Both the position numbers and the translations under genes were made by a program. A DNA stretch of 22,499 nucleotides from a virus. Below the pieces are notes generated by a model. That model was given only the letters and a program-made list of their open reading frames with translations. It ran no database searches and was not told the DNA's origin. The stretch lies in IMG/VR virus record IMGVR_UViG_3300031785_000060, positions 1-22,499 of that record; one strand, 5' to 3'. Of this stretch, positions 3,566-9,787 are shown in pieces (positions within the stretch are counted from its first letter, which is position 1; each line of letters begins with the position of its first letter).

Positions 3566-3952
3566 CACTATCATAGCTCGTTTCCAACTGGTGCGAGCTA
3601 TACTTCTATCTTCAAATAATTTTACTCTAATTCGTGCTGTAACATTTAATTGTTTTGTAACAGCCATAAAAAAAACTGTTTCGTGTGGAATGCTAACTAA
3701 TGCAACAATATCACAATCAATATGACTTAGTGGTTCTTTTTTACCACCTTTAGCTGTTGCCCACATAAAATGTGATGGACGGCTTGTGTCAGGTTTAGAT
3801 CTTGACTTAACTTGTATTCTATAAATTTCACTATTGGTACACGCAATAAGATCAAAAGCACCAACAGAACACATACCAGTACGAACACCAATCTGCTCAA
3901 GTCTTAAAGCAGCAATAAATTCACCAATCCTACCGGTAACAATTTCACTCAC
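3542..3952 (-). CDS. PD-(D/E)XK nuclease, Holliday-junction-resolvase-like
   Basis: This 136-residue protein has the pattern of small archaeal-Hjc-like or intron-endonuclease-like nucleases: TGRIGEF with Glu11, FDLIA with Asp34, and RIQVKS with Gln47 and Lys49. Gln stands where the motif usually has Glu; this occurs in some PD-(D/E)XK families. A role in resolving branched DNA before packaging would suit its late position, but a restriction-like or homing activity cannot be excluded. It starts with GTG, overlapping the endolysin stop (GTGA), so translation is coupled. It is the last gene of the late block and its end overlaps the opposing winged-helix gene. Confidence 0.7.
   Translation of the reverse strand: MSEIVTGRIGEFIAALRLEQIGVRTGMCSVGAFDLIACTNSEIYRIQVKSRSKPDTSRPSHFMWATAKGGKKEPLSHIDCDIVALVSIPHETVFFMAVTKQLNVTARIRVKLFEDRSIARTSWKRAMIVLQNYKGS
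3573..3601. terminator. Hairpin at the convergent transcription junction
   Basis: A perfect 8-bp inverted repeat (ATAGCTCG at 3573-3580, CGAGCTAT at 3594-3601) encloses 13 bases whose CCA and TGG could pair further. It lies eight bases after the plus-strand winged-helix gene stop and inside the 3' end of the minus-strand nuclease gene. Neither side has a proper U-tract, so intrinsic termination is doubtful. Its position where two operons converge suggests mRNA 3'-end protection or pausing. Confidence 0.4.
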
Positions 3953-8354: not shown

Positions 8355-8630
8355 CTATTCCTTTGGGTATTTATCCTTAACTGTTTTTATTGTTTTTTTC
8401 CAACCATCTATTCCATTATGGTATATATCATCTAATTGATCTTCTATTCTTGGGTATTCGTTTTCTCTTTTGTATTGATATTCATTAGGGTCTTTCCAAG
8501 CATTGACTTTTGTCCAATCAATAGTTACTTCTTTGTTATCTTTATCCGTTGCAACAATAGTTTTTTCTGTATCACCATCAACAACTACTACTGTAGAATG
8601 TATTGCTCGTATGGCTTTATGTAAATCCAT
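8355..8630 (-). CDS. Small fibre-associated protein, chaperone-like
   Basis: This 91-residue protein has an alpha/beta N-terminal part (IRAIHSTVVVVDGD, then a KNKEVTIDWTKV strand region) and a C-terminal helix pair, YPRIEDQLDDIYHNGIDGWK ending VKDKYPK. The tail pattern E-Y-P-x-I-x-D-Q-L-D ... V-K-x-K-Y-P recurs in small proteins encoded beside phage tail fibres and is often taken as assembly-associated. The start at 8630 is preferred over an in-frame ATG 21 bases upstream because GGAGGTAGGAG ends four bases before it and it overlaps the previous stop as TAATG. Lying between two fibre genes, it probably helps fold or attach one of them. Confidence 0.65.
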   Translation of the reverse strand: MDLHKAIRAIHSTVVVVDGDTEKTIVATDKDNKEVTIDWTKVNAWKDPNEYQYKRENEYPRIEDQLDDIYHNGIDGWKKTIKTVKDKYPKE

Positions 8631-9451
8631 TATGCTCCTACCTCCATACAAGTTAAACTTGTTGATCCTCTAAATAAATCATCAGAACTTCTTCTGTTAA
8701 TATAATAAGTATAAGAACCACTACTTCCTCTAAAATATAATTTATAAGTTATTTCTGATGTAGTGTTTGGTGAGTCTAAAAAATTATGACCTACTGTATG
8801 ATAATATCCATTACCCGCATAAGAACCCGCACCATAGTTATAAGAACCACCACCAGTACCAAGACCAATGGCATTATATCCACCACCGCCAATATCTCTG
8901 TAAGCTGTAAAAAACATATGAGCATTATAATTATTACCCATAGTACCTACATCAAACATTACTAACACTTTACTAGATGTTGCTGATGGAGTTAAAGTTA
9001 AAGATAATCCTGTAATGGCAACATCACTTGTAGAAGTTGTACTTGCAGTATCAGATTTAAATGCTGATTGCACTTGTAGTATTTTACCACCACTTGGAAC
9101 AGCAAAACTATTATCACCTCTTAAAAATGTACTACTACTCTTTGTTCCTGATGCTGATAACTGTGCTAAACCTACACTCCCGGTTGGCGGATTTACTGTA
9201 CCTACTGCTTTTCCTAAATATACACAATACATATCATCTCCTGAAGCAGTTGCAGCTGTAAGAGTTAATGCTGTTCCACTACAAGAATAGGCATAGGTAG
9301 GTTCTTGTCTTACATTGTTTATAAATAAAGCTATGTCGTTAGCACTTGTTACAGATTGTGATAGTGTATAGCTTGTTGTTGCACTAACAGAAAAATCTTG
9401 CTTCACTAACGAATGAAACGATGTAGCTGGTTGTTGTCCTATATATGGAAT
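8630..9451 (-). CDS. Tail fibre protein, probably started at ATT
   Basis: The reading frame is open from just after the upstream TAG. It contains no ATG, GTG or TTG until a GTG at 9406 that has no SD. Instead, AGGAG (9462-9458) is followed six bases later by ATT at 9451-9449, and translation from there gives (M)PYIGQQPATSFHSLV, the expected N-terminus of this fibre type. The product is then 273 residues: an N-terminal beta domain with LFINNVRQEPTYAYSCSG, a linker (VNPPTGSVGLAQLS) and a C-terminal domain rich in Gly/Tyr ending SSDDLFRGSTSLTCMEVGA, a common phage fibre ending. It would be a receptor-binding fibre. A sequencing error at the start codon is the simplest alternative. If GTG is used, the gene is 258 residues. 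Confidence 0.7.
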   Translation of the reverse strand: MPYIGQQPATSFHSLVKQDFSVSATTSYTLSQSVTSANDIALFINNVRQEPTYAYSCSGTALTLTAATASGDDMYCVYLGKAVGTVNPPTGSVGLAQLSASGTKSSSTFLRGDNSFAVPSGGKILQVQSAFKSDTASTTSTSDVAITGLSLTLTPSATSSKVLVMFDVGTMGNNYNAHMFFTAYRDIGGGGYNAIGLGTGGGSYNYGAGSYAGNGYYHTVGHNFLDSPNTTSEITYKLYFRGSSGSYTYYINRRSSDDLFRGSTSLTCMEVGA

Positions 9452-9463
9452 AATATTCTCCTA
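9440..9463 (-). promoter_or_regulatory. Ribosome-binding site with non-canonical ATT start
   Basis: Read on the minus strand this is TAGGAGAATATTATTCCA. The upstream stop TAG overlaps an AGGAG Shine-Dalgarno, six bases follow, then ATT. The holin-endolysin junction of the same phage (TAGGAGATATTATG) has nearly the same context with ATG in that place. Together with the MPYIG-type peptide downstream, this marks ATT as the probable start. Confidence 0.6.
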
Positions 9464-9787
9464 TGTACTTATTGCATCTACTACGCTAACCCAAACATCT
9501 ACAGAACTAGCTGTATCTGAAATAACTTTAAGTGCATCACCTGATTGTACCACAAACTTTGCACCTCCGTCTAATACTTGTAATGCGGATCCAGCGGGAA
9601 TAGATACATCCTTAACTAAACTAATATCGTTTGAACCATCATTAATATAACAATGAACTGTTATCGCATTGGCGTTGACATTTGCCAAACTAATACCAAC
9701 AACAGTATCATAACTATTTGCAGTAAATATTGTTGCAGCTGAAGTTCCTACTCCATTACTTGTAAATCTTCTAAAATTTTGTGCCAT
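9461..9787 (-). CDS. Small structural protein of the fibre region
   Basis: This 108-residue protein begins MAQNFRRFTSNGVGTSAATI and is beta-rich throughout, with GISLANVNANAITVHCYIND (about 31-50), then SIPAGSALQVLDGGAKFVVQ and a final VDVWVSVVDAIST. I recall similar small proteins encoded next to fibre genes in marine podophages and other short-tailed phages, taken to be virion proteins. No enzymatic motif is seen. It could be a small capsid-decorating or fibre-base protein. A strong SD (AAGGAG) lies five bases from the ATG. It sits between the fibre anchor gene and the first distal fibre gene. Confidence 0.6.
   Translation of the reverse strand: MAQNFRRFTSNGVGTSAATIFTANSYDTVVGISLANVNANAITVHCYINDGSNDISLVKDVSIPAGSALQVLDGGAKFVVQSGDALKVISDTASSVDVWVSVVDAIST

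Follow-up and report, generated by a model that had tools for sequence, protein, structure and literature searches.

A tail fibre gene apparently initiated at AUU in a marine viral contig, and the recurrence of this start among its homologues

Introduction

Where does a tail fibre gene begin when its reading frame offers none of the usual start codons? The question is raised by a stretch of viral DNA of 22,499 nucleotides (IMG/VR virus record IMGVR_UViG_3300031785_000060, positions 1-22,499; hereafter the window), in which a fibre frame on the minus strand contains no ATG, GTG or TTG between the TAG stop of the gene upstream and a GTG at 9406, 45 bases in. The program-made list of open reading frames opens the fibre frame at this GTG. 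AUU starts are exceptional in bacteria, where two E. coli genes, infC and pcnB, have them (PMC9410913). A preliminary description of the locus had nevertheless proposed that the fibre is initiated at an ATT, and we have followed up this proposal by comparison with homologous loci.

Results

The start site and its surroundings

Read on the minus strand, the bases after the TAG are GAG AAT ATT ATT CCA TAT ATA GGA CAA CAA CCA. The features of the locus are as follows.

9461..9787, minus strand: virion structural protein gene, 108 aa, whose homologues are annotated as virion structural protein
9463-9461, minus strand: TAG stop of the 108-aa gene, overlapping the fibre Shine-Dalgarno sequence and in frame with the fibre gene
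9462-9458, minus strand: Shine-Dalgarno sequence AGGAG, overlapping the TAG of the 108-aa gene
9451-9449, minus strand: ATT (AUU), proposed fibre start codon; the same codon is found in contigs L009, L011, L023, L028 and L091
8630..9451, minus strand: tail fibre gene, 273 aa plus stop, with a phrog_18673 N-terminal domain and a predicted TNF/C1q-like jelly-roll tip (about 122-273)
9404..9406, minus strand: in-frame GTG, codon 16, rejected as a start; GTA in the ATT homologue L009

The preliminary description was correct that the frame opens only at ATT and that a textbook Shine-Dalgarno sequence stands six bases before it, the gap occupying 9457-9452. Translation from the ATT gives I/M-PYIGQQPATSFHSLVKQDF..., an N-terminus that homologues begin with ATG, and residues 2-146 match the tail fibre family phrog_18673 in a profile search (E 6.7e-22); the conserved fibre N-terminus claimed for this translation is confirmed. 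Two ATT codons stand side by side here. The first was rejected as the start, being AAT in L011 and L028, and it is therefore the second that is conserved. ATT is not a general start codon of this phage, since the other genes checked on the same strand nearly all begin with ATG (among them the gene starting at 8630) and one with GTG, at 3952. No phage tRNA gene able to read AUU was found in the window.

One point was absent from the earlier account: the upstream TAG shares the frame of the fibre. Because it does so, and because only nine bases separate this stop from the ATT, read-through of the UAG had to be tested as a rival explanation (see below).

In the Pelagibacter phages HTVC035P, HTVC203P and Lederberg EXVC029P, too, a tail protein gene is followed by the 108-aa virion protein gene and then by the fibre gene; HTVC100P has the order of the window with one extra gene. 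From these relatives the host is likely to belong to the SAR11 bacteria, the commonest in the ocean. A megablast search of the window against isolate phages gave no match. Near the contig end, at 865-1602 on the plus strand, lies a serine recombinase gene (Pfam Resolvase, 5e-18, and Recombinase domain; PHROG invertase/integrase), which could be an integrase or could act on fibre modules.

The fibre protein

The fibre had no match in Pfam, and comparison by sequence with solved structures gave nothing significant. An AlphaFold2 model built from 20 sequences (mean pLDDT 78.6, pTM 0.55) is flexible over residues 1-13, with a beta domain at 16-78 and a jelly-roll at about 122-273; pLDDT is mostly above 80 over residues 122-273. 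Foldseek matched the model to the TNF-like lectins 9ib7/9ib9 (E 1e-5) and to the BC2L-C N-terminal domain 2wq4 (E 4e-4), the overall range for these lectin matches being E 1e-5 to 6e-4. Pgp3 was also among the closest solved folds, and the fibre of one isolate relative is annotated as C1q-head-like. Judged by fold match, the C-terminal part is likely to be a receptor-binding tip.

The ATT recurs in divergent homologues

IMG/VR was scanned with protein and DNA-pattern searches for the same start site. Five other assembled viral contigs with differing flanks (L009, L011, L023, L028 and L091) carry ATT at the aligned codon. A further contig matched by the ATT pattern, L083, does not count as a case, because an ATG stands in frame shortly before the ATT. 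With the start codon left free, a scan for sites flanked by the end of the upstream gene, AGT(A/T)CATAGG, and by the PYxG motif returned 85 distinct sites, four of them unrelated chance matches; none of the sites had ATC, ATA or CTG as start codon. Alignment of homologous fibre genes at this codon, which the preliminary description had suggested as a check, thus comprises 81 distinct sites, with ATG in 72, ATT in 6 (the window and the five other contigs) and TTG in 3 (L026, L032 and L113). Where the N-terminus is exactly of the PYIGQQPA type, five other contigs have ATT and a further five ATG; two of the latter (L334 and L335) have a different fibre. Cultured relatives have ATG at the aligned codon, but HTVC115P has GTG.

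It is clear that the ATT copies are not one sequence assembled repeatedly. Over the N-terminal domain the six contigs diverge by up to 24% in nucleotides, and in the four ATT copies that reach that far the first 360 fibre bases are 76-88% identical to the window. Two backgrounds can be distinguished: the window, L009, L023 and L091 (group A) have the spacer AATATT, and L011 and L028 (group B) have GATAAT. The spacer of group B is different, and yet the AGGAG, the six-base gap and the ATT are all kept. All six copies have AGGAG and six bases before the ATT, two of them with AGGAGG; the SAR11 16S tail CACCTCC was found in two loci. Within group A, 35 of 324 sites vary upstream and 15 of 123 downstream, compared to 0 of 18 across the Shine-Dalgarno sequence, spacer and ATT.

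The preliminary description had allowed that the ATT might be an ATG altered by a single-base error, or a population variant of it. The ATT alleles are indeed only a few bases from ATG copies, and the contigs are metagenome assemblies; however, with six contigs of such divergence and two spacers all showing ATT, an artefact of sequencing or assembly, or an ATG mutated in one phage alone, has almost no likelihood. The idea of a population variant fared better in part, since ATT is indeed found beside ATG among nearly identical phages, but with five other contigs bearing it the ATT is not a stray one.

Coding constraint begins at the ATT

No conventional start codon precedes the GTG at 9406 in the fibre frame, and the preliminary description had considered this GTG as the alternative start; it is also conceivable that the gene is dying in the ATT phages. 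In codons 2-15 the six ATT copies show five changes, all five of them at third positions and synonymous, the chance of which is around 0.0008 under a simple model (24% of single changes in this segment being synonymous). Constraint on the coding sequence therefore extends from the ATT onward, which fits neither a start at codon 16 nor decay. Furthermore, the GTG has no Shine-Dalgarno sequence and is GTA in L009, where the next conventional starts lie far inside the domain, so that an internal start is excluded in that phage. The open reading frames run for 272-288 codons in every ATT copy that is not cut by a contig end, which also argues against a dying gene. Initiation at the GTG, or loss of the gene, is therefore very improbable. 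Part of the selection on codons 2-15 could predate the ATT, having acted while a lineage still had ATG.

Read-through of the upstream stop

Alternatively, the UAG might sometimes be read through, so that the 108-aa virion protein and the fibre are made as one fused chain and the ATT is just an internal codon. In the ATT copies the TAG, three spacer codons and the fibre do form one frame, and the second in-frame stop of the nearest ATG copies (ATA TAA/TAG ATG) is absent. Against this, the three spacer codons read ENI in one ATT group and EDN in the other, under an unchanged Shine-Dalgarno sequence and spacing. Each of the 114 distinct homologues of the upstream gene terminates here, 94 with TAG and 20 with TAA, and none of them is a fusion. 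In many ATG homologues the fibre is not in the frame of the TAG, or there is a second stop; the TAG itself is accounted for by its overlap with the Shine-Dalgarno sequence (TAGGAG). When the locus was tested as a programmed read-through gene, relatives were found not to conserve the downstream frame as a continuation of the upstream protein. Read-through is thus improbable.

Strength of the ribosome binding site

In bacteria weak starts can be compensated by stronger Shine-Dalgarno sequences (PMC5622118). The median strength is -7.3 in ATT copies and in ATG copies alike, and such compensation is therefore not visible here; a general strengthening in the ATT alleles was accordingly rejected. 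One pair, L028 (ATT, AGGAGG) and L040 (ATG, AGGA), does fit it. In-silico folding of group A leaves the Shine-Dalgarno sequence and the start partly paired, although such short folds are unreliable.

Evolution of the start codon

In a tree of 1.1 kb upstream of the fibre the ATT copies do not form one clade, at least three changes being needed, and a single ATT clade is rejected both on this alignment (p-AU 6e-5) and on 365 bases including L011 (p-AU 2e-6). L028 and L040 share 97.8% identity in the 2988 bases upstream of the fibre, but in its first 360 bases the identity falls to 76%. This contrast suggests, from the sequences compared, that fibre modules have been exchanged with breakpoints near the fibre start; alternatively, the recurrent ATT may have arisen by convergence.

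Non-ATG starts recur in the fibre gene cluster, with TTG in the first fibre and GTG in the second fibre and in HTVC115P. The second fibre, the homologue of window 7722-6670, begins with GTG in L026, L031, L033, L035, L036 and L042 and with ATG elsewhere; in L026, as in L032, the first fibre begins with TTG too. It is possible, and we put it forward tentatively, that the strength of the start codon (ATG, TTG, GTG or ATT) is a setting of fibre dosage in phages of the SAR11 type, switched by recombination between nearly identical phages, with ATT kept because scarcer fibre is useful, for instance in balance with the second fibre.

Discussion

Initiation of the fibre at the AUU is, in our assessment, highly probable. 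We infer that initiator fMet-tRNA would start the fibre at 9451-9449, the ribosome being directed there by the AGGAG six bases upstream and probably assisted by ribosomes that end the 108-aa gene nine bases earlier (termination-coupled re-initiation). Since AUU is an inefficient start against which IF3 discriminates, the allele would be expected to make less fibre than the ATG version; a low fibre level is plausible by analogy with the known weakness of AUU. Most likely the allele persists as a tolerated or favoured dosage of fibre and moves between phages when the fibre region recombines.

It could be added to initiation at AUU, rather than set against it, that the codon makes fibre synthesis follow the level of IF3 or the translation state of the host, as in E. 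coli infC; the preliminary description had drawn this link to initiation-factor supply. E. coli IF3 discriminates against non-canonical starts and in excess inhibits their use (PMC2268962), and the medium can influence non-canonical starts in S. aureus, although it had no such effect on the AUU one (PMC13009471). SAR11 bacteria do encode IF3, infC having been found in 20 of 20 genomes. However, the SAR11 infC begins with GTG in all 14 genomes with a readable start, so the parallel finds no support in the likely host, where an autoregulatory AUU circuit is not visible; infC has AUU or AUA starts in E. coli and S. aureus. We consider this addition unlikely, although IF3 could weigh on the phage AUU as it does in E. 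coli. In the SAR11 infC loci (L307-L325) the GTG directly follows the upstream stop, that of thrS in L307, with no evident Shine-Dalgarno sequence.

We know of no phage virion gene with an AUU start, and none was found in the open literature searched; a search there for work on pelagiphage start codons gave nothing relevant. Gene finders limited to ATG, GTG and TTG would clip such genes by at least 15 residues, in this case the conserved N-terminal end. The ATT and ATG alleles of nearly identical phages are a natural experiment on fibre dosage and the choice of start codon.

The closest systems for comparison include the cultured relatives. HTVC035P, HTVC100P, HTVC203P and Lederberg EXVC029P share with the window the gene order, the upstream virion protein, the aligned N-terminus and the TAGGAG leader, but all four start the fibre with ATG. 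In E. coli infC and pcnB the AUU limits translation (PMC9410913), to which the fibre AUU can be likened; these are, however, cellular regulatory genes, infC being autoregulated by its own product, whereas here the gene is a structural one of a phage, ATG alleles coexist with the ATT and the likely host's infC uses GTG. In Streptomyces sigR a rare start codon is likewise found where gene dose may matter, but the codon is GTC, the gene belongs to the host and repression by IF3 was tested (PMC5472188). S. aureus cvfC1 combines an AUU with a strong extended Shine-Dalgarno sequence, gives around 10% of the output of AUG in poor medium (PMC13009471) and is like the fibre in having AUU and a good Shine-Dalgarno sequence conserved across relatives, in its case staphylococci; it was demonstrated by ribosome profiling and reporters, whereas the fibre start is proposed from sequence and is polymorphic with AUG. 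Set beside these systems, the fibre AUU appears, with good support from the comparison of homologues, to be a start of a rare but known kind in an unusual place, a phage virion gene.
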